A stretch of DNA of 64,000 nucleotides, taken from assembly GCA_026707285.1 (NCBI GenBank), contig JAPOXD010000009.1:1-64000 (forward strand). Reading direction: 5' to 3'. Within the stretch, counting starts at the first letter, position 1. The number at the start of each line of letters is the position of its first letter. This DNA is from Chloroflexota bacterium (GTDB lineage: Bacteria > Chloroflexota > UBA11872). The notes beneath the pieces were generated by a model that saw only the letters and a program-made list of their open reading frames with translations, made no database searches and was not told the DNA's origin. Positions 16,649 to 37,738 of this stretch are shown piece after piece. A program made the translations under genes and the position numbers.

Positions 16649-16669
16649 GGGCGGATTTGAAATCCGCCC
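16649..16669. repeat. Type C palindromic repeat GGGCGGATTTGAAATCCGCCC
   Basis: Palindrome except for the centre base; related copies at 21792 and 37601. Confidence 0.8.
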
Positions 16670-16676
16670 GTTCGCT

Positions 16677-16703
16677 GTAGGGGCAGGCCTTGTGCCTGCC
16701 CGG
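16677..16703. repeat. Type A half-element (left hairpin only)
   Basis: GTAGGGGCAGGCCTTGTGCCTGCCCGG; compensatory C/G swap versus other copies. Confidence 0.75.
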
Positions 16704-16753
16704 AGCATCGGCGGCGCGGGCGTCGTCGGGCGGCGCTTCCAACCCTCTTCGGT

Positions 16754-16819
16754 GTAGGGGCAGCCCTTGTGGCTGCCCCGGTCATCAGCGGCGCGGGCGC
16801 CCACAAGGGACGCCTCTAC
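16754..16819. repeat. Type A REPIN-like element
   Basis: GTAGGGGCAGCCCTTGTGGCTGCC...GGGCGCCCACAAGGGACGCCTCTAC. Confidence 0.85.
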
Positions 16820-16883
16820 ATGTCCGTACAAGGGTCGCGCCGGGGTAGCGGGGGATCGACGCGCCCCAGAATCCCGCGTGCGC

Positions 16884-18134
16884 TCAGCCCGAGGGACGGC
16901 GCGCCTTCGACGCCAGCAGGCGGCGGTCGAGGCGTGCCAGCCGATGCTCCAGCGCGGGACGCGCGAGCGGCTGGGGCAGGGCGTCCAGGAGACGATCGGC
17001 GTGCGCCAGGGCCTCCACGGTGCACTCCCGCGCGGAGTCGAACGCGCCCGCCCGATGCTCGTGGTACTTGGCCAGCTCGACCAAGGCCCAAACGGCGCCG
17101 CGTCCCTGGCGTCGCCGCATGACCTCCCACACGTCCAGCGCCGGCGGCCAGGCGCCGCGACGCTTGTGGGCCAGGCTCAACGGCGCCTGCGCCAGCGGTT
17201 GCAACTCCTCGTCCAGGCCAAGCTCCAGCGCCCGCGCGTAGGCGGCGAGCGCCGCGTCGAAGTCACCGGCAAGCGCAAAGGACCGCGCCGCGCCGAGCAC
17301 CTGAGCGGGATGGGCGGCGGGGCTGCGCCAGTCGCTGAAGGCGTCGCAGGCGCGCGCCAGCAACGCGGCCATGGACACCATGTCCACCCGGTTGTGGGCC
17401 ACCACCGGCACCAGCTCGCGGGCGTCGCCGGTCCGCAGATAGCGAAAGTAGATTTCGGGGATCTCGTGGCTCGGCACGTCGAGCTCCCGTTCGACGCCCA
17501 GGATTTCCCGCTCCAGCGTGCCGAGGTCGCGGTGCGGGAGCTGATAGCGCCACAGCCGGCGCGCGACGTGCAGCAGGTCCAGCGCGCCCAGGGCGTCGAG
17601 GGCCGTGCGTCGGCGGTTCATGATGAAGCGTGTCCGCAGCAACGGCAGATCGAAGCTCTTGCCGTTGAAGCTCACCGTCCAGTCGAACCGCGAGATCACG
17701 CGCGCCAGGTGCGCCATCAGAGCCGGCTCGTCGGCGTGATCGCGCATGAAGTACTGCTCCACCCGCAGCGCGCCGGCCTCCACCCACCCGCACCCCACCA
17801 GGAAGGCGTAGGTGCCCGTCCCACCCGCCAGCCCGGTAGTCTCCGTGTCGACGAACAGCGCCCGCTCCAGCTCGAATTCCTCGAGCTCCGGATCGCCGCT
17901 GAGCGTGGTCAACGCGCGCCGATCGGGGTCACCGGGCCAGGACGCCGACAGCCCGAGCGGCAACGGGTGGGTCTCACTGATAACGACGAACGACCCGGCG
18001 TCGTTGGATGCGAGCGCGCCGCCGATGACGTCCTCGACCGGCACGCCCGGTGCGACCGTTCGAGGCGCAACCGCAGGCGCTGGCTCGACCGGCTCCCACG
18101 GCCGGTTCCAAGCCATGGCCCGGCCGCTGGTCAT
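16884..18134 (-). CDS. mrfB: YprB/MrfB-like RNase H-fold exonuclease
   Basis: LFVDTETTGLAGGTGTYAFLVGCGW...TVSFNGKSFDLPLLRTRFIMNRR...VVAHNRVDMVSMAALLARA (DEDD-type acidic motifs). Confidence 0.85.
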   Translation of the reverse strand: MTSGRAMAWNRPWEPVEPAPAVAPRTVAPGVPVEDVIGGALASNDAGSFVVISETHPLPLGLSASWPGDPDRRALTTLSGDPELEEFELERALFVDTETTGLAGGTGTYAFLVGCGWVEAGALRVEQYFMRDHADEPALMAHLARVISRFDWTVSFNGKSFDLPLLRTRFIMNRRRTALDALGALDLLHVARRLWRYQLPHRDLGTLEREILGVERELDVPSHEIPEIYFRYLRTGDARELVPVVAHNRVDMVSMAALLARACDAFSDWRSPAAHPAQVLGAARSFALAGDFDAALAAYARALELGLDEELQPLAQAPLSLAHKRRGAWPPALDVWEVMRRRQGRGAVWALVELAKYHEHRAGAFDSARECTVEALAHADRLLDALPQPLARPALEHRLARLDRRLLASKARRPSG

Positions 18135-18152
18135 GCGCAGTCGTCAATCACT

Positions 18153-18218
18153 GTTGGGGCAGCCCTTGCGGCTGCCCGGATCGCCAGCGAGGCGGGCGCC
18201 CACCAGGGGCGCCCCTAC
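18153..18218. repeat. Type A REPIN-like element
   Basis: GTTGGGGCAGCCCTTGCGGCTGCCC...GGGCGCCCACCAGGGGCGCCCCTAC. Confidence 0.85.
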
Positions 18219-18262
18219 GCGGATAAGGGCGTCGCAGGTACCGGATTCCCGCCCCGATCGGT

Positions 18263-18326
18263 GTAGGGGCAGCCCTTGTGGCTGCCCGGATCCACCCGGA
18301 CGGGCGCCCACAAGGGACGCCCCTAC
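18263..18326. repeat. Type A REPIN-like element
   Basis: GTAGGGGCAGCCCTTGTGGCTGCCCGGATCCACCCGGACGGGCGCCCACAAGGGACGCCCCTAC; starts 110 bp after previous copy. Confidence 0.9.
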
Positions 18327-18330
18327 AGGT

Positions 18331-20646
18331 TCACGCAACAGTCTCATCCACCGACAGGGCACCGGCCCGGGTCGCGTCGGCGACAGCGGCAACGGCCTCG
18401 CCCTCGCGCGCCCGCAACACCCGCAGCGTGGCCGCCTTGGCGCTGATGCCCGACGCCACCGGCGGCCCCACGCACGCCGGGCAGCCCTCGGCGCAGTCGC
18501 AGCCGGCGGCCAATTCCGCCGCCGCCTGCATGACCTGGTCGAACGTCGCGTACAACCGCTCACTCAGCCCCACGCCGCCCGGATAGCGGTCGTAGAGGTA
18601 CAGCGTCGGCGCCTGGGTGAACGGCGACTTGATCTCGCTGACCACGCCCAGGTCGTGCGGGTCGCACATCAGATGGACCGCCGCCACGTTGGGCAGCAGG
18701 TGCCGCGCGCCCCAGAGACCGGCTTCGACCTCGCTGCGGGAGAGCGTCTCGGTCAATTCGGGGCGCATCCAGGCCCAGCACGCCTGGGTGTGCATCTCCT
18801 GCTCGGGGAGATCGATGGTGCCCCAGCCCACGTTGTCGTCGTCGCTGATGCGCAGCTTCTTGAAGATCGTGGGCCGGGCCGTCACGCGCACCTCGCCCCA
18901 CGAGCGCCCTAGCGGCGCGTCGGCCTGTTGCTCGAAGTCGTCGAGCACGGCGACGTTCACGTTCATGCTGGCGACGGTGTAGTGCTCCACCGAGACCTCT
19001 TCGACGTACGCCTTGCCCTGCTCCCAGTCGAGGCGGTTGACGTGGTACTGCCGCCCGTCGTGGAGATAGATCGCGTCCTCGTGAACCCGCGTGGGCGCGG
19101 AGAAGCGATCGACCTGGCCGATCACCTCGGGACGGCTCTGGTCGGTCACGATCACGATGTTGTCGAGCGTGCCGGTGCGCAGGCTCACGTATTGGGCGGG
19201 GTAGTCGTCGGCGGTCCAGTGATAGGTGCCGCCGGCCTTGTGCAAGACGCCCGCGTCCTCGAGCATTCGCACGCCGCCGTCCGTGGTGGGTACGCCGAAA
19301 GTCTCGTTCTCGACCAGCGGGAGCTCGAATGCGGCGCACTTGAGGTGGCTGGTGTAGACGTAGACGTTGTCGGGATTGATGAGCGCCGACTCGACCGACT
19401 CGCGCAGCACGAAGTCCGGATTGCGCGCCACGAACTGGTCCAGCGGGCTCGATCCGGCCACGTAGACCGCCACCGAAGACTCGCGGCGGCGTCCCGCGCG
19501 TCCCACCTGCTGCCAGAAGCTCGCCAGCGACCCCGGATAGCCGCACAGCACCGCCGCCTGCGCCTGCCCGATGTCCACGCCCAGCTCCAGGGCGTTGGTG
19601 GCCACGACCGCCCGCACGGTGCCGTCGCGCAGCCCCGCCTCGATCTCGCGGCGCTCGGCCGGCAGGTAGCCGCCGCGGTAGCCGCGCACCTCGCCACGGC
19701 CCAGATGCGGACCGCCGCGCAGCTTGCTCAGCAGCAGCTCGGCGGCGGTGCGGCTGCGGGCGAAGGTGAGCGTCTGGATGTCGTTGCCCAGCAGCACCCC
19801 GGCGATCTCAGCCGCCGCGTCGATCTCCGAGGCCCGAATCCCCAACTGCGCGTTCACCACCCGCGGGTTGTAGAAGATCAGATGCTTCTCGCCGCGCGGC
19901 GAGCCGTCGTCGTCCACCACGCCCAGGTCGCGCTCCGTGAGCCGGTCGGCCAGCTGCTTGGGATTGGCGATGGTGGCGGAGCAGGCCACGATCTGCGGTC
20001 GCGAGCCGTAGAACTCGGCCACGCGCAGCAGGCGCCGCAGCACGTTGGCCAGGTGGCTGCCGAAGATGCCGCGATAGACGTGCAGCTCGTCGAGCACGAT
20101 GAAGCGCAGGTTCTCGAACAGCCGGGTCCATTGGGTGTGGTGCGGCAGGATGCCCTGGTGGAGCATGTCGGGGTTGGTGATCACCACGTGCCCGGCCTGC
20201 CGCAGCTTGCGCCGCGCGGTCGTCGGGGTGTCGCCGTCGTAGGTGTAGGTCTTGATGTCGGCTTCGGCGACCTGGATCAGCGCGTACAGCTCGTCGAGCT
20301 GGTCCTGCGCCAGGGCCTTGGTGGGGAATAGGTAGAGCGCGCGCGCCTGGGGATCGTCCAGGATGGCCTGGACGACCGGCACGTTGTAGCAGAGGGTCTT
20401 GCCCGAGGCCGTGCCGGTGACGATGCAGACGTCCTCGCCGCCGAGCACCCGCGCGATGGCCTCGGACTGGTGGGTGTAAAGCTCGCGCACGCCGCGCCGC
20501 TCCAGCGCCCGCCGCAACACCGGCGCGACGCCCTGGGGCCAGTCCCCATACCGCGCCTCGCGCGCGGGTCGGACCTTCCAGGCGGTGACGCCGCGAGCAA
20601 AGGCCGCGTCGCCCGAAAGACGGTCGGCAAGCTGCGCGGCGTTCAT
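18331..20646 (-). CDS. mrfA: YprA/MrfA-like DEAD/DEAH-box helicase with C-terminal cysteine cluster
   Basis: Walker A GTASGKTLCYNVPV, FIVLDELHVYRG, VGRAGRRRESSVAVYVAG, C-terminal CDCAEGCPACVGP. Confidence 0.9.
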   Translation of the reverse strand: MNAAQLADRLSGDAAFARGVTAWKVRPAREARYGDWPQGVAPVLRRALERRGVRELYTHQSEAIARVLGGEDVCIVTGTASGKTLCYNVPVVQAILDDPQARALYLFPTKALAQDQLDELYALIQVAEADIKTYTYDGDTPTTARRKLRQAGHVVITNPDMLHQGILPHHTQWTRLFENLRFIVLDELHVYRGIFGSHLANVLRRLLRVAEFYGSRPQIVACSATIANPKQLADRLTERDLGVVDDDGSPRGEKHLIFYNPRVVNAQLGIRASEIDAAAEIAGVLLGNDIQTLTFARSRTAAELLLSKLRGGPHLGRGEVRGYRGGYLPAERREIEAGLRDGTVRAVVATNALELGVDIGQAQAAVLCGYPGSLASFWQQVGRAGRRRESSVAVYVAGSSPLDQFVARNPDFVLRESVESALINPDNVYVYTSHLKCAAFELPLVENETFGVPTTDGGVRMLEDAGVLHKAGGTYHWTADDYPAQYVSLRTGTLDNIVIVTDQSRPEVIGQVDRFSAPTRVHEDAIYLHDGRQYHVNRLDWEQGKAYVEEVSVEHYTVASMNVNVAVLDDFEQQADAPLGRSWGEVRVTARPTIFKKLRISDDDNVGWGTIDLPEQEMHTQACWAWMRPELTETLSRSEVEAGLWGARHLLPNVAAVHLMCDPHDLGVVSEIKSPFTQAPTLYLYDRYPGGVGLSERLYATFDQVMQAAAELAAGCDCAEGCPACVGPPVASGISAKAATLRVLRAREGEAVAAVADATRAGALSVDETVA

Positions 20647-20925
20647 GCGGGGATGGGGTGGCTATACAAAAGGGCACCACCGGAAACGCCAAGCGTCACC
20701 CGCTCACCCTAGCGCACGATCCCCCACCACACAAATACCGAACACCCTGCTCCAGGGACGGTGATATGGCGAGCCTAATATTGAGCCAATGTGTCCTGGC
20801 GCGGCTCTCTCAGCAGATTACCCAGTCTCTGGGCAATATGGCAGAGTGTTAGTTTCAGGCTGAAGCCATTCCGAATACGCCAAGCATCTTCTGTCCTCTG
20901 GCGACGAAGTTGAAATAGGCAAGAC

Positions 20926-21723: not shown

Positions 21724-21791
21724 GCTGAAGCCGCCGCGCAACCGAGGTTGGTTACATCCCTGGCGTAGAGCCTTCCCATAGTCGATACGGC

Positions 21792-21812
21792 GGGCAGGTT
21801 TGAAACCTGCCC
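21792..21812. repeat. Type C palindromic repeat GGGCAGGTTTGAAACCTGCCC
   Basis: Palindromic; stem differs from the other two copies by paired changes. Confidence 0.8.
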
Positions 21813-21850
21813 CTACCGGACAACGCGAACGCCTCGGATAGATAGAGGGG

Positions 21851-23005
21851 TCAGGCCGCCCAGCTTGCGACGAAATCGTCCACCGTCACCGGCTGCCGCA
21901 GTTCGGCGTGGAGGCGTTGCGCCAGCCAGTTGCAGCGGCGCCACATTTCGTCGGCCTCGGCGTCGCTGAACCACTCGCCGAAGTCCGCTCCCCAGCCCAG
22001 GGTGAGCGGATGCAGGGACTTGGCCTCACGCTGCAGATCCTCCGGCAACTCGTCGAAGTCTGGCTGCCTGAGCAGGTAGATGTGCCGCGCGGCTTCGGCC
22101 ACGCATGCCGTGAGGGTCAGCTTGGAAGCCGGACCGGCGCCAGGATGCAAGCCCTCGAGCGCCGTGCGAAAGGCCGCCGCGTCGCCGTCCAGGACGCCCT
22201 GCAGCGCCTGCGCGGTGAGGTCCCGCTGCTCCGCCGCGAGGCGATTCCAGCTCTGGAACGCGGCGGCGGACGACGGCGAGAGATGGCGCGTGAAGCCCGG
22301 ATCACGCGGCATGGCGTGCACCGATATGCCGCCGTGCACCGTGCGTCGGAGCTTCATGCTGTAGTTGCTGCCCCAGTGCAACATGCTGTGGTAGTAGATC
22401 AAGCCGTCGCCGGCCTTGAGCTTCACCGGCATGCCGCCCGGCAGCGGCGACCGCGGATCATTCTTGAGCCGGCGGTCCTCCTCGGGCGTGTTCAGGCGGC
22501 GGTGGCTGCCCGGAACCACCCAGAACACGTCGTCGTCGTAGAGCGGCAGGTTCCATTGCAGGTAGCGCGGGCCGGTTTCCGCCAGCTCCTCTTGCAGCAG
22601 CCAGAGCGGCGCCACCCCGTTGTTTCCAATGTCGCGGTGCCACTTGGCGGGGCCGTGGTCGACGCGCGGGTTGCACATCATCATCATGTGCATGGGCACC
22701 GCCTCGGTCCCGCTGAGCAGCTCGCGGCTCGTGCCCATGACCGGCTCGCTGAGCCATAGCTCGACCGCCGGCGCGGTTTCCTCGTCCACCAGCGCGTGGA
22801 AGTCGGGCACGCGCGGCTGCATGTGTTTCTCCCACGTGCCGCCGGGCGGATCGTCGGGACCGGCCTCGCGGCGCCAGACCTCGCGCTGCCGTTCCAGCAA
22901 GCCCTCGCAGGCCTCCCGCACCGCGTCGAGCCGGTCGGCGGGGATGACGTTGCGCACGAAGAGATAGCCGTCGCGACGGAGCATTGACTTGTTCAGGCTG
23001 GGCAT
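21851..23005 (-). CDS. Phytanoyl-CoA dioxygenase (PhyH) family protein
   Basis: 384 aa; AKWHRDIG (HxD), VVPGSHRRLNTPEEDRRL, GDGLIYYHSMLHWGSNYS. Confidence 0.88.
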   Translation of the reverse strand: MPSLNKSMLRRDGYLFVRNVIPADRLDAVREACEGLLERQREVWRREAGPDDPPGGTWEKHMQPRVPDFHALVDEETAPAVELWLSEPVMGTSRELLSGTEAVPMHMMMMCNPRVDHGPAKWHRDIGNNGVAPLWLLQEELAETGPRYLQWNLPLYDDDVFWVVPGSHRRLNTPEEDRRLKNDPRSPLPGGMPVKLKAGDGLIYYHSMLHWGSNYSMKLRRTVHGGISVHAMPRDPGFTRHLSPSSAAAFQSWNRLAAEQRDLTAQALQGVLDGDAAAFRTALEGLHPGAGPASKLTLTACVAEAARHIYLLRQPDFDELPEDLQREAKSLHPLTLGWGADFGEWFSDAEADEMWRRCNWLAQRLHAELRQPVTVDDFVASWAA

Positions 23006-23083
23006 GGGGACTCCGATGTTGGGTGTCGCCCTACGCGGCGGTTTGGGCTGAGCGTTTCACGCACGATACTTGGTGCGGCGTTT

Positions 23084-23112
23084 CCCACGCTGCACGCAGC
23101 GCGGGCCACCGG
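23084..23112. repeat. Type B palindromic repeat
   Basis: CCCACGCTGCACGCAGCGCGGGCCACCGG. Confidence 0.85.
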
Positions 23113-23200
23113 CAAGCGGTCAATCCGGTCCCCTCTCCCCACCGTGGGAGAGGGATAGAGCCTGCCCCGGACTTGATCCGGGGGTGAGGGGACGGCCGCC

Positions 23201-23229
23201 CCCACGCTGCACGCAGCGCGGGCCACCGG
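23201..23229. repeat. Type B palindromic repeat
   Basis: CCCACGCTGCACGCAGCGCGGGCCACCGG, identical to copy at 23084. Confidence 0.85.
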
Positions 23230-23253
23230 ACCGGAATTCCCGCTCCGTTCGGT

Positions 23254-23532
23254 GTAGGGGCAGCCCTTGTGGCTGCCCGGATCCACCCGGACGGGCGCCC
23301 ACCAGGGACGCCCCTACGCGGACGTGGGCCCGCCGGGCCTGGACTTCCATCCCGTTCGATGTAGGGGCAGCCCTTGTGGCTGCCCGGATCACCCGGACGG
23401 GCGCCCACCAGGGGCGCCCCTACTCGGGCACGGGCATCGCCGGATCTCGATTCCGGCCTCCGGTCCGTGTAGGGGCAGCCCTTGTGGCTGCCCGGATGCA
23501 CCCGGACGGGCGCCCACCAGGGGCGCCCCTAC
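23254..23532. repeat. Tandem array of three Type A REPIN-like elements (23254-23317, 23361-23423, 23469-23532)
   Basis: Starts 107 and 108 bp apart; each GTAGGGGCAGCCCTTGTGGCTGCCCGG...GGGCGCCCACCAGGG(A/G)CGCCCCTAC. Confidence 0.92.
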
Positions 23533-23554
23533 GCGGGCAACGGAGTCGCTGGGC

Positions 23555-24709
23555 CTACGTGCCCCAACTCGCGGCGAAATCGTCCAGCGTCACCCGCTGC
23601 GGGGGCTCGGCGTGGAGGCGCTGCGCCAACCACTCGAAGCGACGCCACAACTCGTCGGCCTCGGCGTCGCTGAACCGGTCGGCAAAGGCCGGTCCCCAGC
23701 CCAACGTGAGCGGGTGGAGGTGCGTCGCCTGTCGCTGCATCGCCTCCGGCAGGTCGTCGAAGCCCGGCTGCTTGAGCCAGTGGATGTGCCGCGCGGCCTC
23801 GCCCAGGCACGCCGTGAGGGTCAGCTTGGAAGCCGGACCGGCGCCGGGGTGCAAGCGCTCGAGCGCCGTTTCAAATCCTGGCGCGTCGCCGTCCAGGACG
23901 CCGCGCAGCGCCTGCGCGGTGAGGTCCCGTTGCTCCGCCGCGCGGCGATTCCAGGTCTCGAACGCGGCGGCGGACGACGACGAGAGATGGCGCGTGAAGC
24001 CTATGTCCCGCGGCATGGCGTGTACGGCCATGCCGCCGTGCACCGTGCGCCGCAGCTTCGGGCTGTAGTTGCTGCCCCAGTGCAACATGCTGTGAAGGTA
24101 GATCAAGCCGTCGCCGGCCTTGAGCTCCACGGGCATACCGCCCGGCAGCGGCGACCGCGGATCGTCCTTGAGCCGCCGGTCCTCGTCCGGCGTATTCAGG
24201 CGCCGGTGGCTGCCCGGCACCACCCAGAGCACGTCGTCGTCGTAGAGCGGCAGGTTCCACTGGAGATAGCGCGGACCGGTTTCCGCCAGTTCCTCTTGCA
24301 GCAGCCACAGCGGGGCCACCTCGAGCGGCCCGATGTCACGGTGCCACTTGGCGGGGCCGTGGTCGGTGCGCGGGTTGCACATCATCATCATGTGCATGGG
24401 CACCGCCTCGGACCCGCTGAGCAGCTCGCGGCTGATGCTCATGACCGGCTCGCTGAGCCACATCTCGACCGCCAGCGCGGTTTCCGCGTCCACCAGCGCG
24501 TGAAACTCGGGCACGCGCGGCTGAGGGCGCATGTCCCACACGCCGCCGGGGAGATCGTCGGGCCCAGCCTCCTGGCGCCAGATCTCGCGCTGTCGGTCCA
24601 GCACGCCCTCGCAGGCTTCGCGCACGTCGTCGAGCCGGTCGGCCGGGATGACGTTGCGCACGATGACGTAGCCGTCGCGACGGAGCAGGGATTGGTTCAG
24701 GCTGGGCAT
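23555..24709 (-). CDS. Phytanoyl-CoA dioxygenase (PhyH) family protein, close paralog of 21851-23005
   Basis: 384 aa; AKWHRDIGPLEVAPLWLLQEELAETGPRYLQWNLPLYDDDVLWVVPGSHRRLN. Confidence 0.88.
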   Translation of the reverse strand: MPSLNQSLLRRDGYVIVRNVIPADRLDDVREACEGVLDRQREIWRQEAGPDDLPGGVWDMRPQPRVPEFHALVDAETALAVEMWLSEPVMSISRELLSGSEAVPMHMMMMCNPRTDHGPAKWHRDIGPLEVAPLWLLQEELAETGPRYLQWNLPLYDDDVLWVVPGSHRRLNTPDEDRRLKDDPRSPLPGGMPVELKAGDGLIYLHSMLHWGSNYSPKLRRTVHGGMAVHAMPRDIGFTRHLSSSSAAAFETWNRRAAEQRDLTAQALRGVLDGDAPGFETALERLHPGAGPASKLTLTACLGEAARHIHWLKQPGFDDLPEAMQRQATHLHPLTLGWGPAFADRFSDAEADELWRRFEWLAQRLHAEPPQRVTLDDFAASWGT

Positions 24710-24788
24710 GGAGACTCCGGTTCTGGACGACGCGCTACGCGTCGAAATGGGCTAAGCGCATCACGCAAGTCACATGAGTGCCGCGTAT

Positions 24789-24817
24789 CCCACGCTGCAC
24801 GCAGCGCGGGCCACCGG
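24789..24817. repeat. Type B palindromic repeat
   Basis: CCCACGCTGCACGCAGCGCGGGCCACCGG. Confidence 0.85.
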
Positions 24818-24833
24818 ACAGAGCCCGTTCGGT

Positions 24834-24897
24834 GTAGGGACAGCCCTGGTGTCTGCCCGGTTCGAACCCGCCGGGCGCCCACAAGGGGCGCCCCTAC
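24834..24897. repeat. Type A REPIN-like element (diverged left arm)
   Basis: GTAGGGACAGCCCTGGTGTCTGCCCGGTTCGAACCCGCCGGGCGCCCACAAGGGGCGCCCCTAC. Confidence 0.85.
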
Positions 24898-24963
24898 GCG
24901 GACAGGGGCGTCCCCCGAACTGGATTCCGGCTTTCGGCGGAATGACGGAACGCTCCACACGCC

Positions 24964-25875
24964 CTACGACCCGTCCAGGCCGATGTATTTCATCACCTGG
25001 TCCACCCACACGTCGTCGTAGCCCCTGCCTTCCCAGAGGCGGATCAGCGGCGCGTCGGCATCGGTGGGATGCACGCCCGCGGGATCGTGATCCAGGACGC
25101 CCAGGAGCTGGCGCCGCACGGGGTCGGCACGCGCGATCAGCTCCGGTGAGCTGGAAACGCGGTCGCCCAGCCGCATCCAGATCGGGGAGTAGACGTAGAA
25201 GAGATTCTTGCGCCGCACGTTCGAGGTATTGCGCGAAACCGAGTGCCACAGGGCGTTGTGAAACAGCATCGCGTCGCCCGCGCGCAGCAGCAGTTGCTTC
25301 GCGCCCGGCACGCCGGCATCGATCTCGTCGACCTCCTTGAAGCGGCTCGGCGAAGCGAGGATTTCCGCGTTGGCGTCCTCTCGCGGAAAGTTGCCGCGGT
25401 GGCTGCCGGGAATAAGCAGGAAGTTGCCCATGTCGGGCGCGTCCACGTCGGTGAGAAACCAGCCGATCTTGAGGTGCAGCAGCGGCGTGAGCCCGCCCGC
25501 GCTCGGAAACGGGTAGGGCTTGGGGCCGTCGTAGTGCCAGCGGCTGCCGGGATGCGGCGTGGGCGGGCGCACCATCACCTGCGACGCAAGCAGCTGGATC
25601 GTAGCGCCCATCAGGTCCAGCACGATGCCCAGGTGATTGGGGTGATCGATGAGATCGAGGAAGGCGTCGTCCTCCTCGATCACGTTGAGGGTGCTCAACC
25701 ACTCGTCGGGCGAACGGCCGGCGCGCTGCGAAGCCTCGTCGACGCGGTCCACGGCGTCGCCGAGCCGCGCGATTTCTTCAGGCGACAGCACGCCGGGCAG
25801 CACCAGATAGCCCTGTGTGTCCCAGTGCTCGCGCTGCTCGGGCGTCAGGCGCGTGAGGGTCTTGACGTCGATCAC
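24964..25875 (-). CDS. Phytanoyl-CoA dioxygenase (PhyH) family protein
   Basis: 303 aa; GSRWHYDGPKPYPFPSAGGLTPLLHLKIGWFLTDVDAPDMGNFLLIPGSHRGNFPRE; RAGDAMLFHNALWHSVSRNTS. Confidence 0.9.
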   Translation of the reverse strand: MIDVKTLTRLTPEQREHWDTQGYLVLPGVLSPEEIARLGDAVDRVDEASQRAGRSPDEWLSTLNVIEEDDAFLDLIDHPNHLGIVLDLMGATIQLLASQVMVRPPTPHPGSRWHYDGPKPYPFPSAGGLTPLLHLKIGWFLTDVDAPDMGNFLLIPGSHRGNFPREDANAEILASPSRFKEVDEIDAGVPGAKQLLLRAGDAMLFHNALWHSVSRNTSNVRRKNLFYVYSPIWMRLGDRVSSSPELIARADPVRRQLLGVLDHDPAGVHPTDADAPLIRLWEGRGYDDVWVDQVMKYIGLDGS

Positions 25876-25984
25876 GGGCGCACCTCCCGGCGGGCTGCCA
25901 TCGGGGGTCCAAGTCTCGGTCGGCGACAGCGTAGCGCGAGCGACACTGGGACGTTACGAGTCCGTCGTTCCGAACGCACCAATC

Positions 25985-26094
25985 GTCATTCCGAACGTAG
26001 TGAGGAATCTAAGGACGCGGTGCCCTCTCCCCACCCCTTGGATTTCTCGCTCCGCTCGAAATGACAGTAGTTGGCTCGAAATGACATGAGTTGG
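25985..26094. repeat. Short dispersed intergenic repeat (ERSEES-type) with a 20-bp direct repeat at 26055-26094
   Basis: GTCATTCCGAACGTAGTGAGGAATCTAAG...GGATTTCTCGCTCCGCTCGAAATGAC; CTCGAAATGACAGTAGTTGG then CTCGAAATGACATGAGTTGG. Confidence 0.6.
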
Positions 26095-26168
26095 CCCGTT
26101 ACTTCGACCTCGAAGTTAAACGCCGAACGTGTATAAAAACTCCAGCCTCGGCCCGCCGCGAAGACGCC

Positions 26169-26930
26169 CTACCAGTTGCCGTTGACCAGCCAGCCGCCGT
26201 CGGCGAAGAGGCAGTGGCCGGTGACGAAGCTCGACTCGTCGGAGGCCAGGAAGACCGCCGCGGCGGCGATCTCCTCCGGCGTGCCCAAACGTCCGGCGGG
26301 AACCCGCAGCATCAGCGGGGCGATGGCCTCGTTGCCCTCTTCGCGGGCGCCGCGAAACAGGGGCGTGTCGGTGTAGCCGGGGCCGATGGAGTTGGCCCGC
26401 ACGCCGTGCTCCGCCAGCTCGACCGCCATCACCTGGGTGGCCATGATGACCGCCGCCTTCGAGGTGCAGTACGCGATGCGCTCACTGACCGCGCGTCCGC
26501 CATAGATCGACGCGATGTTGATGATGGAGCCCGTACCGTCGGTCACCATGCGGCGGGCCGCCGTCTGGGCGCTGAAGACGACCGCGTCGAGATTGAGGTC
26601 CATCAGGCGGCGCCAATCCTCGCGCGTGTGGTCCAGGAACATGGCCCCGATGGAGACTCCGGCGCTGCCGACCCACACGGTGAGGCCGCCGAGGTCGCTC
26701 ACGACGCCGTCGACGAAGCGATCCAGGTCGTCCTGCTCGGTCACGTCGATCGGCATGTCCAGGGCGCGCCGGCCGAGCGCGCGCACCTCGTCGGCCACGC
26801 CGGCGGCCCGTTCCGGATCGAGGTCGCCGATCGCGACGTCCGCCCCCTCGCGCGCGAACGCCAGCGCGCAGGCGCGGCCAATGCCCGAGCCGCCACCGGT
26901 GATGGCGGCGATCTTGCCCTCCAGCCGCAT
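26169..26930 (-). CDS. SDR family oxidoreductase
   Basis: MRLEGKIAAITGGGSGIGRACALAFAREGADVAIGDLD; YCTSKAAV; start CAT at 26928-26930. Confidence 0.9.
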   Translation of the reverse strand: MRLEGKIAAITGGGSGIGRACALAFAREGADVAIGDLDPERAAGVADEVRALGRRALDMPIDVTEQDDLDRFVDGVVSDLGGLTVWVGSAGVSIGAMFLDHTREDWRRLMDLNLDAVVFSAQTAARRMVTDGTGSIINIASIYGGRAVSERIAYCTSKAAVIMATQVMAVELAEHGVRANSIGPGYTDTPLFRGAREEGNEAIAPLMLRVPAGRLGTPEEIAAAAVFLASDESSFVTGHCLFADGGWLVNGNW

Positions 26931-27026
26931 GTTCAGTCTCCTTCGATGTTGGGTTGCACGGATTGGCTGCCGCATTGTCGCGAGAATTCGCGGACGGCGG
27001 GGACGCATCCGGTGGCCCACGCTGTT

Positions 27027-27054
27027 CGGTGGCCCATGCTGCGTGCAGCATGGG
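27027..27054. repeat. Type B palindromic repeat (reverse orientation, compensated stem)
   Basis: CGGTGGCCCATGCTGCGTGCAGCATGGG; partial second copy at 27009-27024. Confidence 0.8.
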
Positions 27055-27325
27055 AAGGGCCGTTCCCCTCACCGCTTCCCCCGGTTGCGACCTTCGCGTA
27101 AACCCTCGTCATTCCCGCGAAGGCGGGAATCCACCCTTCACTGAATCCGGGGGCGGAGAGGATGCGCCCGGTCTTCCTCACGCCCGGCTGAATCTTGCAA
27201 GTGTCTGCGGTGGAGAAAGGGAACCGGACATTCGGCTAGAAACAAGCCGCTATCCTATCCCCGAGCGCTGAACTACCCGCGGCCGGGATCGGCCGCCGAT
27301 GCACCCCTTTACCGGAGGATTCCCC

Positions 27326-28294: not shown

Positions 28295-28310
28295 CGACCG
28301 ATCCGGGCGA

Positions 28311-29081: not shown

Positions 29082-29111
29082 GCGTCCCTCCGCCGTGGCG
29101 ACCGCGGACCG

Positions 29112-30263
29112 CTACTGGCTGCGGCCGCGCGCGGTGACGTGCCAAACGGCCTCAACGATACCGTCCCGCGCGGCGAAGGCGTGGTCGTAGAGGTTCACGC
29201 AGGGGCAGATGTGGTTGGGGATGACGCGCAGCGTCTGACCGATGGCGAAGGCGCTCGCGTCCGGCGCGGCGATCACGCCGTGCTCGTCGGACACGCTGGT
29301 GATCACGGCTTCGGGATGGCCGACCACCATGCCGTGGCCGGTGTTCGCCAGCACACCGGGGCCGCGACGGTCGGAGGTGAGCGCCTTGGCGCCGGCGTCG
29401 ATGACGACGCGATCCGGCGCCGGCAGGTTCACCACCGTCGCCAGCACCGTCGCCGCGCACCACTCGGTGTGCCCCAACAGATGCGCGTGCGACGCGTCGT
29501 TGAACACCGCCGTGCCCGGGCGCAGCTCGTCGATGGGCGCGTGGAACGATTCGAGCAGGAACGACGGCGAGGACCCCATGCTCACCTCACACGGCGCGCC
29601 AGTTGCGTCCTGGATCGCCTCGGCGACGCCGGTCATCAACTGTTGGGACTCCGCGGCGGCGACATGGACGCCGGCCGGATCAGCAGCCTGATAGTCGTGG
29701 CCTTCATGCGTGTAGATGCCGCGCAGGTTCAGGCCGTCGGCGTGGAGTATTTGCTGTGCAAGTGCAACGGCGGGCTCGGCGCTTGCCACGCCCGTGCGCT
29801 GCTGGCCGGTGTCGATCTCGATGGCCAGGTCGATCGTCGCGGCGGCAGACTCGAAGGCCGCCCCGAGCGCCCGCACGTGCTCGGCATGGTCGACGCCGAC
29901 GGCGAGGCGGGTGCGCGCGGCAAGCTCCACGAGGCGAATGAGGCGCGACGCGCCGACGACCTGGTTGGCGATGAAGATGTCGTCGAAACCGGCGTCGGCA
30001 AAGGCCTCGGCCTCGCCGACCTTGGCGCAGCAGATGCCCTCGGCGCCGGCTCGTCGCAGCCGATCAGCGACCGCCGCCATGCGGTGGGTCTTGACGTGCG
30101 GACGCAGCCGCGAGCCCGCCTTGCGCGCGGTGGCCACCATGCGCGCGATATTGGCGTCGAGCACGGCGAAGTCGATCACGAGCGCCGGGGTCTCGAGGTC
30201 CGCCACGGCACGCCCGACGGCGGCGGAAGGCTCCCGGCTGGAGAGCACGGCTTCGGACGTCAT
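29112..30263 (-). CDS. D-threonine aldolase / D-serine dehydratase-like PLP enzyme (alanine racemase N-terminal fold)
   Basis: LETPALVIDFAVLDANIARMVATARKAGSRLRPHVKTHRM...ICCAKVGEAEAFADAGFDDIFIANQVVG; start CAT at 30261. Confidence 0.85.
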   Translation of the reverse strand: MTSEAVLSSREPSAAVGRAVADLETPALVIDFAVLDANIARMVATARKAGSRLRPHVKTHRMAAVADRLRRAGAEGICCAKVGEAEAFADAGFDDIFIANQVVGASRLIRLVELAARTRLAVGVDHAEHVRALGAAFESAAATIDLAIEIDTGQQRTGVASAEPAVALAQQILHADGLNLRGIYTHEGHDYQAADPAGVHVAAAESQQLMTGVAEAIQDATGAPCEVSMGSSPSFLLESFHAPIDELRPGTAVFNDASHAHLLGHTEWCAATVLATVVNLPAPDRVVIDAGAKALTSDRRGPGVLANTGHGMVVGHPEAVITSVSDEHGVIAAPDASAFAIGQTLRVIPNHICPCVNLYDHAFAARDGIVEAVWHVTARGRSQ

Positions 30264-30349
30264 GGGTTTTCGGCGCGGTCCTGCGCTGGGGTGAGTGTAC
30301 GGCCTGCGGCGGCGCGAGATTTTCGCGAGGCGCGTGTCGGTCATTCGGT

Positions 30350-30413
30350 GTAGGAGCAGCCCTCGTGGCTGCCCGGTTCGAACCGGACGGGCGCCCACAA
30401 GGGACGCCCCTAC
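30350..30413. repeat. Type A REPIN-like element
   Basis: GTAGGAGCAGCCCTCGTGGCTGCCCGGTTCGAACCGGACGGGCGCCCACAAGGGACGCCCCTAC. Confidence 0.85.
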
Positions 30414-30540
30414 AAGACTCTCCGCGGTGACGCGTTGGCGTGGGCCGGGCGCCGGATGTCGTACCGTTCCATACGCGGGTCGGGAATCGCACGAACAGCA
30501 CCGCGTATGAACGTCACGGGTGGTCGGGGGTTGGGTCGGC

Positions 30541-32031
30541 ATGGGCGCTGAGGTCAGGCGGCTGAGCAACTGGATCAACGGCGAGTGGGCGGAGTCGGCC
30601 AGCGCCGATCGCCTGGACGCCGACAATCCGGCGACGGGCGAGGTGATCGCCAGCGTGCCGCTGTCGACCGAGACCGACATCGACGCGGCCGTGCAGGCGG
30701 CCAAGGCGGCCTTCCCGGCCTGGCGCGACACCCCGGCCGTCGATCGCGGACGGGTGCTGTTCCGGCTGCATTCGCTCATGCGGGATCGGTTCGAGGAAAT
30801 CTCCCGCACCGTGACCATCGAGAACGGCAAGACGCTGGAAGAGGCCCGCGGCGAGGTGCTGCGGGCCGTCGAAAACGTCGAGGTGGCCGCGGGCATTCCC
30901 ACCCTGCAGCAAGGCTCGTTCTCCAGCGACATCTCGGCGGCCATCGACGAACACTCGATCCGCGAGCCGCTGGGCGTGTTTGCGCAAATCGGACCCTTCA
31001 ACTTCCCGGCCATGGTGCCGTTCTGGTTCGGCCCGCTGGCGGTGGCCTGCGGCAACACTTTCGTGACCAAGCCGTCGCAGAAGACGCCGCTGAGCCAGAC
31101 GCTGCTCACGGAGCTCACGGCCGAGGCGGGATTCCCGCCCGGCGTGATGAACCTGGTGCACGGCGAAGGCGAGCAGGCCCAGGCGTTGAGCGCCCATCCC
31201 GACGTGGCGGGGGTGTCCTTCGTCGGCTCGACACCGGTGGCGCGGGCGGTGTACGAAACCGCCACGCGTCACGGCAAGCGGGCGCAGTGCCAGGGCGGGG
31301 CGAAGAATCACTTGGTGGTGCTGCCGGACGCCGACCTGGACGCCGCGATTCCCAATATCTGCGGCTCGACCTATGGCTGCGCCGGCCAAAGATGCCTGGC
31401 CGGGTCGGTGGTGGTGACGGTCGGCGACGTCCGCGAGGAACTGACGGAGCGGCTGGTCGAGGCGACCTCGTCAATCCGTCTGGGCGACGGGCTCGATCCG
31501 GACACCGGCATGGGCCCGGTGATTTCCGCCGAGTCTCGCGATCGCGCGTTCGCCTACATCGATCAAGCGATCAAAGACGGCGCTGAAATGCTGCTGGACG
31601 GGCGCGGCGCGACAGTGGACGGGCTGCCCGGCGGCTACTGGGTGGGCGCGACGGTGCTGCACGAGGTGACCCCCGACATGCCCGTCGTGCGCGACGAGAT
31701 CTTTGGGCCGGTGGTGAGCCTGATGCACGCCGACACGCTGCAGGACGCCATCGACATGGTGGAGGCCAGCCCCTTCGGCAACGCGGCCACGCTCTACACC
31801 AACAGCGGCGGCGCGGCGCGGGAGTTCACGCGGCAGGTCAACGTCGGCAATGTCGGCATCAACGTGGGCGTGGCGGCGCCGATGGCCTTCTATCCCTTCG
31901 GCGGACGCAAGCAGTCGTTCTTCGGCGACATCCACGCCCAGTCCACCGAGCTGGTGCGGTTCTACACCGACCCGAAGGTCGTGATCACGCGCTGGCCGGG
32001 CAAGTCGGACGGCCGGGACCCGTGGGACTGA
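30541..32031 (+). CDS. mmsA: CoA-acylating methylmalonate-semialdehyde dehydrogenase-like aldehyde dehydrogenase
   Basis: NWINGEWAESASADRLDADNPATGEVIASVP; GAKNHLVVLPDADLD; YGCAGQRCLAGSVVV (MMSDH-type Cys motif); start could be 30520. Confidence 0.88.
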   Translation: MGAEVRRLSNWINGEWAESASADRLDADNPATGEVIASVPLSTETDIDAAVQAAKAAFPAWRDTPAVDRGRVLFRLHSLMRDRFEEISRTVTIENGKTLEEARGEVLRAVENVEVAAGIPTLQQGSFSSDISAAIDEHSIREPLGVFAQIGPFNFPAMVPFWFGPLAVACGNTFVTKPSQKTPLSQTLLTELTAEAGFPPGVMNLVHGEGEQAQALSAHPDVAGVSFVGSTPVARAVYETATRHGKRAQCQGGAKNHLVVLPDADLDAAIPNICGSTYGCAGQRCLAGSVVVTVGDVREELTERLVEATSSIRLGDGLDPDTGMGPVISAESRDRAFAYIDQAIKDGAEMLLDGRGATVDGLPGGYWVGATVLHEVTPDMPVVRDEIFGPVVSLMHADTLQDAIDMVEASPFGNAATLYTNSGGAAREFTRQVNVGNVGINVGVAAPMAFYPFGGRKQSFFGDIHAQSTELVRFYTDPKVVITRWPGKSDGRDPWD

Positions 32032-32052
32032 GCGCGCGACAGGAGCGCCCCA

Positions 32053-32721: not shown

Positions 32722-32780
32722 AATCGGCAGGGCGCGTAGCGTCGCGCCGCGGAACGTAGCTGCGTAAGGAAACCGTCCCG

Positions 32781-33533: not shown

Positions 33534-33539
33534 CGAGAC

Positions 33540-34322
33540 ATGGCACGCATCGATTCATTGACCAATCCCGTCAAGGCCAAGCTGCGCCGCGGCGAGGTGG
33601 CCCTGGGCGTGGGCGTCGCGCTCGGCAGCCCGAACATCGTGGAGCTGCTCGCGCGGCAGGGGTTCGATTGGGTCTTGATCGACAACCAGCACGGCACCTG
33701 GGGGCGCGAGTCCACGTCCGCGGCGTTCATGGCGGCGAGGGCCGGTGGCGCGGTGCCCATTCCCCGGGTGCTCAGCAGCGAGTACACCGCCGTCGGGCAT
33801 CTGCTCGACGAGGGCTGCACGGGAATCGTCGTGCCGATGGTGGATTCGCCCGAGGAAGCGGAGCAGGTTGTGCACGCCTGCAAGTATCCGCCCGCGGGCG
33901 GCCGGTCGCTCGGCGCGGCGGGGGCGATTGCGCAGTGGCCGGAGTACATGAACCGCATCAACGACGAGTTGCTCATCATGGTGCAGGTCGAGTCCAAGCA
34001 GGCCGCCGAGGCGGCCGACGAGATCATGGCGGTGGACGGCGTCGACGGCACGTGGGTCGGCCCGGCCGACCTCGCCGCATCCATTGGTCACGCGCAAGGA
34101 AGCACCGAGCACACGGACTGCGTCGTCGGCGTGTTCGACGCCTGCCGGAATCAGGGCAAGATCCCGGGCATCTCCGCCGGTCCGCCCGACTCCGCGAAGC
34201 GCTGGATCGAGCACGGCGCGCGCTTCGTGACTATTGGCGCGGACGTGCTGTACGTGCTCCAGGGCGCGCAGGCGGAGCTTGAGGCGTTTGGCCGTGCGCC
34301 AGGCTTGGGCGACTGGTCGTAG
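33540..34322 (+). CDS. HpcH/HpaI aldolase family protein (tandem paralog)
   Basis: VELLARQGFDWVLIDNQHGTWG; GIVVPMVDSPEEAEQVVHACKYPPAGGRSLG; TWVGPADLAASIGH. Confidence 0.9.
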   Translation: MARIDSLTNPVKAKLRRGEVALGVGVALGSPNIVELLARQGFDWVLIDNQHGTWGRESTSAAFMAARAGGAVPIPRVLSSEYTAVGHLLDEGCTGIVVPMVDSPEEAEQVVHACKYPPAGGRSLGAAGAIAQWPEYMNRINDELLIMVQVESKQAAEAADEIMAVDGVDGTWVGPADLAASIGHAQGSTEHTDCVVGVFDACRNQGKIPGISAGPPDSAKRWIEHGARFVTIGADVLYVLQGAQAELEAFGRAPGLGDWS

Positions 34323-34465
34323 CCCAAGCGACCGCCGCCTTTGGTCCCAAGGGTGTCCAGACAAGAGATCAAGTCCCGTTCATGGTGAGCCTGCCCCGTA
34401 CCTGATACCGGGGCGAACGGATTGCCGCCGCTCGCCCGACAACCAATGCCGATGCCAGCTACCTA

Positions 34466-35236
34466 ATGACAACCGAGAGCCAGAGACCGCGACCGCTGAA
34501 GGTGGATGAGGTCCGCAGGCTCCTACAGGCAATCGACGAATCGCCTGAGACGGTCATCCCGATCCACTTGCTGCGGCGAGGGACGTGCCGGACATACGCC
34601 GCTGGCGATGCGGCGGCGTTGGACGCCGTGGTTGTGCAGGCCGACCACATGCCGGAGGAGCTGTTCGGACTCGGGACTAGCGCGCAGGGGATCTGGGACC
34701 TGCTGCGCGTCCTTGACGGCTGGACGTGCGTGGAAGTGGCGCCAGTGGTCGCCCCCGCACTCGGCGCGCTGATGAGCGAAGACACGGGAAAGCGCGTCCG
34801 CTACTACGAGGGCATCTATCACACCCTTACCAAGCCGGCGCCGGTATTCGAAGATCCGGCGGTTCGCCAACTGACCATCCGTGACGCCGGCCTGCTGGCC
34901 GCCTACGGATTGCACGGCGGAGACTTCGGCAGCTTGCCCAGGCTGCTTCTCGAGGGTGTGGTCGCGGGCGCGGTGGTGGACGGCCAAGTAGTCGGAACGG
35001 CCCACACCAGCGCCGTCACCGACCGATACTCCGACATCGGGGTCGACACGCATGAGGCTTGGCGCGGGCGAGGATTCGCCACGGCCGCCGCGTCCATCGT
35101 GGCGAGGCGGGTGCAAGAGCAAGGACGAATCCCCGTCTGGAGTTGCGGCGAGGACAACGTGGCATCCCTCCGAGTCGCCCGGAAGCTGGGATTTGAGGAA
35201 GTCTCCCGGCTCACCTACCTGATCAAGGCGGCCTGA
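34466..35236 (+). CDS. GNAT family N-acetyltransferase
   Basis: VDTHEAWRGRGFATAAASIVARRVQEQGRIPVWSCGEDNVASLRVARKLGFEEV. Confidence 0.85.
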   Translation: MTTESQRPRPLKVDEVRRLLQAIDESPETVIPIHLLRRGTCRTYAAGDAAALDAVVVQADHMPEELFGLGTSAQGIWDLLRVLDGWTCVEVAPVVAPALGALMSEDTGKRVRYYEGIYHTLTKPAPVFEDPAVRQLTIRDAGLLAAYGLHGGDFGSLPRLLLEGVVAGAVVDGQVVGTAHTSAVTDRYSDIGVDTHEAWRGRGFATAAASIVARRVQEQGRIPVWSCGEDNVASLRVARKLGFEEVSRLTYLIKAA

Positions 35237-35299
35237 ATCAAAGCGCCGCGGCAAGCCGCGCGGCGTTCGCTCGGTAGGCGCCCGGCGCGTGAACTACGG

Positions 35300-36268
35300 C
35301 TAGGGAATCAGCAGCAGCTTCCCGGTCGTGGCGCGGCCTTCGAGGTCGGTGTGGGCTTGCGCGGCGTCGGCCAGGGCGTATTCGCCGTGGATCTTGAGCT
35401 CGAGCGAGCCGTCCGCGACCCAGCCGAGCACGGACGACGTGCGCCAGGCGAACTCTTCGGAGGTGATGAGATGGTGCCCAAGGCTCGGACGCGCCAGGAA
35501 TAGCGAGCCCTTCTGGTTGAGGACCTGCGGGTCCATGGGCGGCACGGGTCCGCTGGCGGCGCCGAAGAGCACCATGTAGCCGCGCGGCTTGAGGCAATCG
35601 AGGCCGCGGTCGAACGTGGCCTGCCCCACGCCGTCATAGACGACGTCCACGCCGGTCCCGTCGGTGAGCTCGCGGACCTTGGGTAGAAAGTCCTCTTCCG
35701 TGTAGTTGATGACGTGATCCGCGCCCACGGCTGCTGCGACTTCCGCCTTGGCGGGCGTTCCGACGGTGGTGATGACCTCCGCACCCGCTTTCTTGGCCAT
35801 CTGAATGATCAGACGACCGGCCCCGCCCGCGCCCGCGTGCACCAGCGCGGTGTGGCCGGCGCGCAGCGGAAAGCTCGAGGTCGTGAGGTAGTGCGCCGTG
35901 CAGCCCTGGAGCATCACGGCGGCCGCGGTGCGGGTGTCCAGCGCTTCCGGAACGCGCACCAGCCGATCGGCGGCGACGGCCTGCAATTCGGCATATGAAC
36001 CAATCTCGGTGCCGTGCGCGACGCGATCGCCAGCCTCGAGCGCGGTCACCTCCGACCCGACCTCCACCACCACGCCGGCGCCTTCCATGCCCAGCGTGAA
36101 CGGGGGCTCGACCGGGTAGCGGCCGGTGCGCTGGTAGGTGTCGATGTAGTTCACCCCGGCGGCTTCGGTGCGCACCAGGACCTCGTTGGGCGCGGGCGAC
36201 GGGTCGGGGATGTCTTCGTAGCTGAGCGCCTCGATGCCGCCCGGCGTGTGGACGCGAATGGCTTTCAT
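35300..36268 (-). CDS. Quinone oxidoreductase (zinc-independent MDR family)
   Basis: GMEGAGVVVEVGSEVTALEAGDRVAHG; HAGAGGAGRLIIQMAKKAGAEVITTVGTPAKAEVAAAVGADHVINY. Confidence 0.92.
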   Translation of the reverse strand: MKAIRVHTPGGIEALSYEDIPDPSPAPNEVLVRTEAAGVNYIDTYQRTGRYPVEPPFTLGMEGAGVVVEVGSEVTALEAGDRVAHGTEIGSYAELQAVAADRLVRVPEALDTRTAAAVMLQGCTAHYLTTSSFPLRAGHTALVHAGAGGAGRLIIQMAKKAGAEVITTVGTPAKAEVAAAVGADHVINYTEEDFLPKVRELTDGTGVDVVYDGVGQATFDRGLDCLKPRGYMVLFGAASGPVPPMDPQVLNQKGSLFLARPSLGHHLITSEEFAWRTSSVLGWVADGSLELKIHGEYALADAAQAHTDLEGRATTGKLLLIP

Positions 36269-36351
36269 GGGTGACTCCTTTGCGGCGGGAAAACGCCAGC
36301 ATAGGACGCGGTGCGGCTAGGCAGGGCCGCGCGTGCCTTATATTCCGGCCC

Positions 36352-37575
36352 GTGCGCATACCCGACGTGCTTCAAACGCTGCGCCCGCTGATCGCCGGCG
36401 TGTACCTGCCGGCGTTCCTGATGTTCTTCGGCGTGGGGATGCTGACGCCGACGCTGCCGCTGTTCGCGGCGGAGCTGGGCGTGAACTACACGCTGGTGAC
36501 ACTGGCGGTAGCGGTGACGGGGCTGGGCACGCTGCTGTGGAACGTGCCGGCCGGTCTGCTGCAGGCGCGCTGGAGCGAGCATCGCTCGGCGATCGTGGGA
36601 CTGCTGGCGGTGGCGGCGGCGACGCTGGCGATGGGCTTTACGCGTGACTACGCGCTGGTGGTGGTCTTCCGCGCGCTGGCGGGGATCGGCATGGCGACCT
36701 GGACGATCTCGCGCATGTCGCACCTGGTGGCCGCCGTGCCGCACCACCATCGCGGGCGGGCGATGTCGCTGTTCGGCGGGATCATGCGTATCAGCCTGTT
36801 TCCCAGTCCCGCCATCGGCGGCGCATTGGCCGAGCTGGTGAGCTACGAGGCGTGCTTCCTGGTGGCGGGACTCTTTGCCGCCGTCGGCGTGCTGCCGATG
36901 CTGCTGATGCGGCAGCGGGTCGAGCGGCCGCTGGGCAGCGTGCCGACGCGGCACGTGGCGCCGTCGAGCCTGTGGGCGGTGCTGCGGGGGCACTGGCGCG
37001 ACCTCGCGACCGCCGGAACGGGGCACGTGCTGGCGTCGGCCGTCCGCGCGGGGCGACAGGTGATCATTCCGATCTACGGCGCGTTCGTCCTCGGTCTGGA
37101 CGCGGCCGAGATCGGCGTGGTGGTGAGCGCGTCGGCGGCCATCGACATGACGCTGTTTCCGGTTGCCGGGTACGTGATGGACCGGTTCGGGCGCAAGTTC
37201 ACCAACGTGCCGTCCATGTTCATGCTCGGGGCGTCGATGGCCGTGCTGCCGCTGGCGCAGGATTTCGTGGGGTTGATCGTGGTGGGGCTCTTCGCCGGCG
37301 TGGCGAATGGATGGGGTTCCGGCGCCATGCTGACCCTCGGCTCGGACCTGGCCCCCCGCGAGTCGCCGGGGCCGTTCCTGGGCGTCTGGCAGTTCATGGG
37401 CAACACCGGCATGACGGGCGGGCCGCTGATCGTGGGCGTGGTGGCGGATGCGGCGGGTCCGGACGCGGCGCCGTTCTACCTGGCGGCGGCGGGCTTCGCC
37501 AGCGGGCTCATTTTCTTGCTGTTGGTGCGCGAGACGCACCGGGTGCGAGGACAGCCGGCTACGGTGTCGGCGTAG
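36352..37575 (+). CDS. MFS family transporter
   Basis: GTG start at 36352 (VRIPDVLQTLRPLIAGVYLPAFLMFFGVGMLTPTLPLFAAELG); multiple TM segments. Confidence 0.88.
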   Translation: MRIPDVLQTLRPLIAGVYLPAFLMFFGVGMLTPTLPLFAAELGVNYTLVTLAVAVTGLGTLLWNVPAGLLQARWSEHRSAIVGLLAVAAATLAMGFTRDYALVVVFRALAGIGMATWTISRMSHLVAAVPHHHRGRAMSLFGGIMRISLFPSPAIGGALAELVSYEACFLVAGLFAAVGVLPMLLMRQRVERPLGSVPTRHVAPSSLWAVLRGHWRDLATAGTGHVLASAVRAGRQVIIPIYGAFVLGLDAAEIGVVVSASAAIDMTLFPVAGYVMDRFGRKFTNVPSMFMLGASMAVLPLAQDFVGLIVVGLFAGVANGWGSGAMLTLGSDLAPRESPGPFLGVWQFMGNTGMTGGPLIVGVVADAAGPDAAPFYLAAAGFASGLIFLLLVRETHRVRGQPATVSA

Positions 37576-37600
37576 GTGGGCCTTCGAGCGATTGGGCGCG

Positions 37601-37621
37601 GGCGGGTCTGAGACCCGCCCC
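37601..37621. repeat. Type C palindromic repeat GGGCGGGTCTGAGACCCGCCC
   Basis: Palindromic; compensatory changes versus other Type C copies. Confidence 0.8.
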
Positions 37622-37637
37622 TACCCTGACGCTCGGT

Positions 37638-37666
37638 CCCGGGCTGCGCGCAGGGCGGGCCACCGG
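37638..37666. repeat. Type B palindromic repeat (diverged)
   Basis: CCCGGGCTGCGCGCAGGGCGGGCCACCGG. Confidence 0.65.
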
Positions 37667-37672
37667 GTCGGT

Positions 37673-37738
37673 GTAGGGACAGCCCTTGTGGCTGCCCGGA
37701 CTGTGACTCGCACGGGCGCCCACCAGGGGCGCCCCTAC
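37673..37738. repeat. Type A REPIN-like element
   Basis: GTAGGGACAGCCCTTGTGGCTGCCCGG...GGGCGCCCACCAGGGGCGCCCCTAC; overlaps the stop codon of the adjacent gene. Confidence 0.85.

Follow-up and report, generated by a model that had tools for sequence, protein, structure and literature searches.

GTAG-tagged head-head REP dimers are known, the Chloroflexi included (Di Nocera et al. 2013, PMC3733652). REPs lying in frame between the HUH and Tyr motifs of the enzyme have been described as a feature found only in TnpA-REP subclass 2.4, the equivalent of RAYT group 4 (Quentin et al. 2018, PMC6006769), and in E. coli, REPINs are more numerous in RAYT-bearing than in RAYT-less genomes (PMC8049555). 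Here, we describe a repeat family from the window, the stretch of 64,000 nucleotides from a Chloroflexota bacterium that was analyzed, and from the genome to which it belongs. It is a genuine REPIN family and belongs to a kind already known, since both GTAG REP dimers and in-frame REPs have already been described in the studies cited above. We consider it very probable that the elements are REPINs copied by a cognate group 4 (subclass 2.4) RAYT that is encoded elsewhere in the genome.

The GTAG families (PMC3733652), including GTAG-23 of Thermomicrobium roseum (Chloroflexi), resemble the window family in their GTAG tag and short stem, in forming head-head heterodimers of two stem variants, and in having clusters that are reiterated in tandem along with flanking DNA. 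GTAG-23, however, is clustered at few loci, whereas the window family is dispersed with hotspots, the two being likened by description and not by sequence. Subclass 2.4 (PMC6006769) shares with our system a GTAG foot, a G-C-rich lower stem, REPs both around the RAYT gene and in frame inside it between HUH and Tyr, a variable HUH-Tyr distance, and a scattered occurrence over many phyla. It differs in that the inserts found here are tandem whole REPIN doublets, two versus three in sister species, and in that REP abundance here follows the REP carried by the resident RAYT. The REPINs of E. coli and Pseudomonas (PMC8049555) are likewise inverted REP doublets that are more numerous where a RAYT is present, and their RAYTs are single copy and vertically inherited, as here. 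Those RAYTs belong to groups 2 and 3, however, and ours belongs to group 4; for the REPs flanking them, the comparison rests on the literature. New here are the tandem whole-REPIN inserts, varying in number between sisters, and a link to REP abundance in two REP families.

Nine REPIN doublets and a single module in the window

The window holds nine full doublets of 63 to 66 bp and one half copy, all on the plus strand. In the list below and throughout, G000 is the genome containing the window, and G001 to G005 are other species of the same genus.

16677..16701, plus strand: half copy, one REP module whose stem is a compensatory variant, GTAG + GGGCAGGC-CTTGT-GCCTGCCC
16754..16819, plus strand: REPIN copy 1, spacer of 16 nt
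18153..18218, plus strand: REPIN copy 2, at a site where each of the six species in the genus has a REPIN
18263..18326, plus strand: REPIN copy 3, a local tandem 110 bp from copy 2
23254..23317, plus strand: REPIN copy 4, start of a three-copy tandem with a period of 107 to 108 bp (orthologous site: two copies in G002, a right-half remnant in G001, none in G005)
23361..23423, plus strand: REPIN copy 5, spacer of 13 nt
23469..23532, plus strand: REPIN copy 6, third of the tandem begun at 23254
24834..24897, plus strand: REPIN copy 7, left stem diverged; G005 has no REPIN at the site
30350..30413, plus strand: REPIN copy 8, intergenic, common to G002, not in G005 or G003
37673..37738, plus strand: REPIN copy 9, whose right GTAG foot is the TAG stop of a minus-strand ORF (37735-39039)

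A left-module pattern of 25 nt matched 10 times in the window, with 0 matches expected from 100 dinucleotide-preserving shuffles, and a right-module pattern matched 17 times, with 0.02 expected. The count of about ten copies, and their positions, given in an earlier sequence-only reading of the window, are confirmed. Each REPIN consists of GTAG with an 8-bp stem and a 5-nt loop, a spacer of 13 to 16 nt, and then the inverted module. The left module is GTAG + GGGCAGCC-CTTGT-GGCTGCCC; the right module, read on the other strand, is GTAG + GGGCGCCC-CTGGT (or CTTGT)-GGGCGCCC, and its GGACGCC right-arm variant amounts to a G.T pair when the GTAG-first strand is read. In one window copy, the foot is GTTG instead of GTAG. 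Once inverted, the right module is identical to the left at 20 to 21 of 25 positions, in agreement with the same reading's description of two inverted copies of one palindromic module, and the two diverge in mid-stem (AGCC/GGCT versus GCCC/GGGC). The unit is a head-head heterodimer of REP modules, that is, a REPIN. The copy at 16677 was considered as a truncated REPIN and rejected as such, because its one module has a compensated stem of its own. A search of the window against Rfam gave no match, and a literature search for the literal GTAGGGGC returned primers and unrelated work.

The inverted ends, GTAGGGGC...GCCCCTAC, would also suit a MITE, the 64-bp unit being a shrunken DDE insertion sequence with its terminal inverted repeats, and the sequence-only reading had called the element REPIN/MITE-like. 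Each end, however, forms a GTAG-footed hairpin of its own, and single modules occur too. Comparison of the window with orthologous sites revealed neither a target duplication nor an insertion sequence with these ends, and the same genome encodes a RAYT carrying the same repeat. We give a MITE origin next to no chance, and the label is not supported in its DDE-transposon sense. The REPIN half of the label fared well, as tests of the hairpin and its GTAG foot, of the head-head doublet, of dispersal over the genome, and of stem covariation were all positive.

Mapped relative to genes, the sites in the window and in orthologous regions fall in variable intergenic gaps; the genes on either side are conserved and for the most part co-oriented. 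At each of the six sites in the window, the flanking genes point the same way, one element supplies a stop codon, and the elements form stable folds as DNA (z of -2.1 to -5.6). Along with the roles of REPs known in other bacteria (PMC8049555), this is what might be seen if the repeats were RNA elements kept by selection, gene-end hairpins stabilizing or attenuating transcripts, with mobility incidental. However, the hairpins have no T-run after them, the same stems are found inside RAYT coding sequence, and presence and copy number turn over fast among sister species, leaving an RNA function decidedly improbable as the explanation.

The ORF ended by the GTAG foot of copy 9 (37735-37738) is the upstream minus-strand gene, of the MR/MLE family. 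In a 717-amino-acid ORF (29112-31265, minus strand), two genes that form separate ORFs in sister species are read through as one frame, with the REPIN at 30350 between them. The densest REPIN cluster is flanked by three PhyH dioxygenase paralogues (21851-23005, 23555-24709, and 24964-25875), two of which are 83% identical over 300 nt. After a REPIN there is often GCGGACnnGGGCGTCGCnGG and then CTGGATTCCnGC...GCnGGAATGACG, a CGTC-type REP (18219-18262, 23318-23360, 24898-24945, and orthologous sites), with which the tandem REPIN arrays look interleaved. Two more stem families (GGGCGGGT/ACCCGCCC; GGGCAGGT/ACCTGCCC) are represented by single GTAG modules at 37600-37624 and 21792-21816. The gaps at 16600-16880, 23005-23555, 25900-27260, and 34280-34480, in G001 to G005 as well, are mosaics of other short palindromic repeats (CCCACGCTGCACGCAGCGTGGG, CCCTCTCCC...GGGAGAGGG, CCCCGGACTTGATCCGGGG, CCTTCGACAAGCTCAGGG, and ATTCCTCGCTCCGCTCGGAATGACA) that differ between sisters.

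Spread through the genus and covariation of the stems

A covariance model built from the window copies was run on the 3.21-Mb genome and its relatives. It found about 89 places in the genome itself, comprising about 31 strong doublets and about 58 weaker matches; the copies are thus not confined to the contig of the window. The window is a hotspot, with nine strong doublets at six separate sites where 0.5 sites would be expected. Six of the genome's 25 separate strong sites fall in this 2% of its length (P ~1e-5, or P = 7e-4 when corrected for about 50 windows of this kind). Spacers of the dispersed doublets are mostly 14 or 16 nt. All six species of the genus have at least 41 to 81 matches each among the matches listed, compared with 0 to 17, or almost none, in the sister genus (twelve or more genomes).

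Among 18 module variants, some taken from this genus and others from RAYT loci in further phyla, 100% of cells were paired, and both-sided changes were seen at all five variable pairs, in 32 cells versus 9.5 after shuffling. Since having a stem was a criterion for picking the variants of other phyla, an unselected pairing test was added. Here, 57 of 100 distinct GTAGGGGC-anchored 25-mers from the genus were fully paired at the four variable positions; with right arms shuffled, the mean was 16 and the maximum was 27. The stems covary strongly, including when there is no preselection for pairing.

Sister species differ in REPIN presence and copy number at orthologous sites, by intergenic block or by tandem number. 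We found no clean single-element empty site or junction at the orthologous sites in sister species. REPIN mobility, current activity, and any effect on the host are matters that we infer.

A RAYT gene split by in-frame REPINs

No RAYT is encoded in the window, as the sequence-only reading had correctly noted, but one was found elsewhere in the genome, in an ORF that holds the same REPIN. A search with PF01797 (Y1_Tnp) over the genome and 60 relatives found no match in the whole family. The NCBIfam RAYT model NF047646 gave two split matches in G000 and in G002, with scores under the model cut-off, presumably because the insert splits the match. The idea of REPINs without any transposase was rejected once NF047646, and then a RAYT protein search, had found the split gene. 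Pfam Y1_Tnp misses the G000 RAYT because two in-frame REPINs separate its HUH motif from that of the catalytic Tyr.

G000:C14:250,082-250,840 (L106:3083-3841): G000 RAYT, two in-frame tandem REPINs, 117-bp unit equal to 39 codons
L116:14398-15213: G002 RAYT, three in-frame tandem REPINs, 117-bp unit equal to 39 codons

The G000 RAYT is one open frame holding the HUH motif MPNHIHG, the two REPINs, translated as VGAPLVGA...DRAATRAAPT, and the Tyr motif RRYYEHV; a further (third) REPIN lies directly upstream of the gene. The G002 RAYT is found at the same locus, beside folK. The modules of internal copy 2 of G000 and of all three G002 copies are identical, as reverse complements, to those of the commonest dispersed doublet, and the spacer of the two internal G000 REPINs is 27 nt, versus 14 or 16 nt in most dispersed copies. 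With the insert excluded, the G000 and G002 proteins are 87% identical. By simple Nei-Gojobori counts on this one pair, the RAYT core has a dN/dS of 0.19 (0.20 and 0.19 on either side of the insert) and the folK neighbor 0.18; judged from these counts, the core is under purifying selection. The ATG used by the G002 RAYT is lost in G000, in which an upstream start would be needed.

An AlphaFold model made for the RAYT of a relative, L212, shows the IS200/TnpA-REP fold (4er8, 2xma, and 2vju) with the insert at low confidence, and the REPIN-encoded insert is probably disordered. The HUH motif, the catalytic Tyr, the REPs in frame, and the fold of L212 place our RAYT in group 4, TnpA-REP subclass 2.4. 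The L212 RAYT, from Candidatus Poribacteria, is 53% identical to that of G002, and its GTAGGGGCAACCCTTGTGGTTGCCC REP has the same loop, a likeness that would fit a possible transfer of RAYTs between phyla. In G051, from another family of the phylum, a GTAGGGGCGAAGCATCGCC-type REP array lies directly upstream of a RAYT (L071:1-1090 and 1174-1695).

The RAYT is missing from this locus in G001 and G005, and the G003 and G004 contigs end near it. A RAYT-protein search found no orthologue in G001, G003, G004, or G005. REPINs are thus kept without a cognate RAYT in four of the six species of the genus, so copies persist without one. In the one stretch of the window that was compared, G005 is nearer to G000 than G002 is, which makes loss of the RAYT in G005 likely.

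REP abundance and the resident RAYT

Within 1 mismatch, the left module has 32 and 52 matches in the two RAYT-bearing species versus 26, 12, 9, and 5 elsewhere, and in those two genomes, the modules are more identical as well as more numerous. A second REP, GGTTCGCGAACC, counted on both strands of near-palindromic elements, has 67 matches in G001, whose RAYT holds it inside, versus 16 to 22 in the others. The G001 gene belongs to a separate subtype.

L164, L198 (G001:C22:2529-3026): second RAYT subtype, holding its own double-foot REP and flanked by it on either side, one in-frame stop

That stop, a TAG, suggests that the G001 RAYT may be decaying. Related RAYTs have other REPs at the same place, TGTAGGGGCGGTTCGCGAACCGCCC translated as CRGGSRTA and GTAGGGGCGGGTCTCCGACCCGCCC as VGAGLRPA. 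Across two REP families, the counts show REP abundance following the matching RAYT subtype, in six genomes only and with kinship uncorrected. Within-genome REPIN diversity, taken as a sign of recent activity in a sample biased to top matches, did not clearly separate RAYT-bearing from RAYT-less species.

The REPINs could instead be fossils of a single spread in the ancestor of the genus, subject now only to point mutation and recombination, with the RAYT no longer moving them. Their retention in four of six species lacking the cognate RAYT points that way, as do the site at 18153 occupied in every species, the fact that the differences seen are mostly in tandem copy number, and the absence of the G002 start codon from the G000 RAYT. 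Against this stand purifying selection on both halves of the RAYT core, the more numerous and more identical modules of the two RAYT-bearing genomes, and a second REP family tied likewise to its own RAYT, and we regard a fossil family as unlikely.

Under the reading that we favor, copying by the cognate group 4 RAYT, each module would fold as GTAG plus an 8-bp hairpin when the region is single-stranded. The HUH/Tyr RAYT would recognize the GTAG foot and hairpin and cut, although its chemistry on REPs, like any host benefit, is something that we infer. The doublet would then be carried by the RAYT to another place, in most cases intergenic, and recombination between neighboring copies would yield the 107- to 117-bp tandem arrays. 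Counting against this reading are the REPINs kept by four species that lack the RAYT, the failure to find a clean single-element empty site, the lost ATG of the G000 RAYT, the 27-nt spacers of its internal copies, and an abundance link drawn from six genomes.

In-frame REPs in RAYTs of other phyla

A set of 80 RAYT loci, drawn from many phyla and ranked by how similar they are to a RAYT query, gave 70 that could be parsed. A GTRG hairpin lies in the HUH-Tyr linker of 51 of these 70, a fraction that may be inflated because the ranking query itself includes REPIN-encoded residues; 45 begin GTRGGGG. There were 83 GTRG hairpins in 18.8 kb of linker versus 20 in the remaining 32.6 kb of frame.

It is conceivable, if unlikely, that the REPIN inside the RAYT is a protected master copy that fixes which REP family the enzyme spreads, and that may allow the RAYT to bind and regulate its own gene or mRNA. 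Translated into a disordered loop that the protein tolerates, the REPIN would then be inherited with the enzyme. The six-species link of internal REP to REP abundance fits such a master copy, as do the GTAGGGG hairpins at the same place in group 4 RAYTs of many phyla.

Pfam Y1_Tnp misses RAYTs that are split by in-frame REPs, and claims of REPs without a RAYT therefore need a RAYT-specific model. An unexplained repeat cluster of an uncultured bacterium becomes a REPIN-RAYT pair from group 4, which has been little studied. The REP inside each RAYT offers a simple readout of the REP family served by the enzyme, and a genus with both RAYT-keeping and RAYT-lacking species is a natural test of the persistence of REPIN populations.
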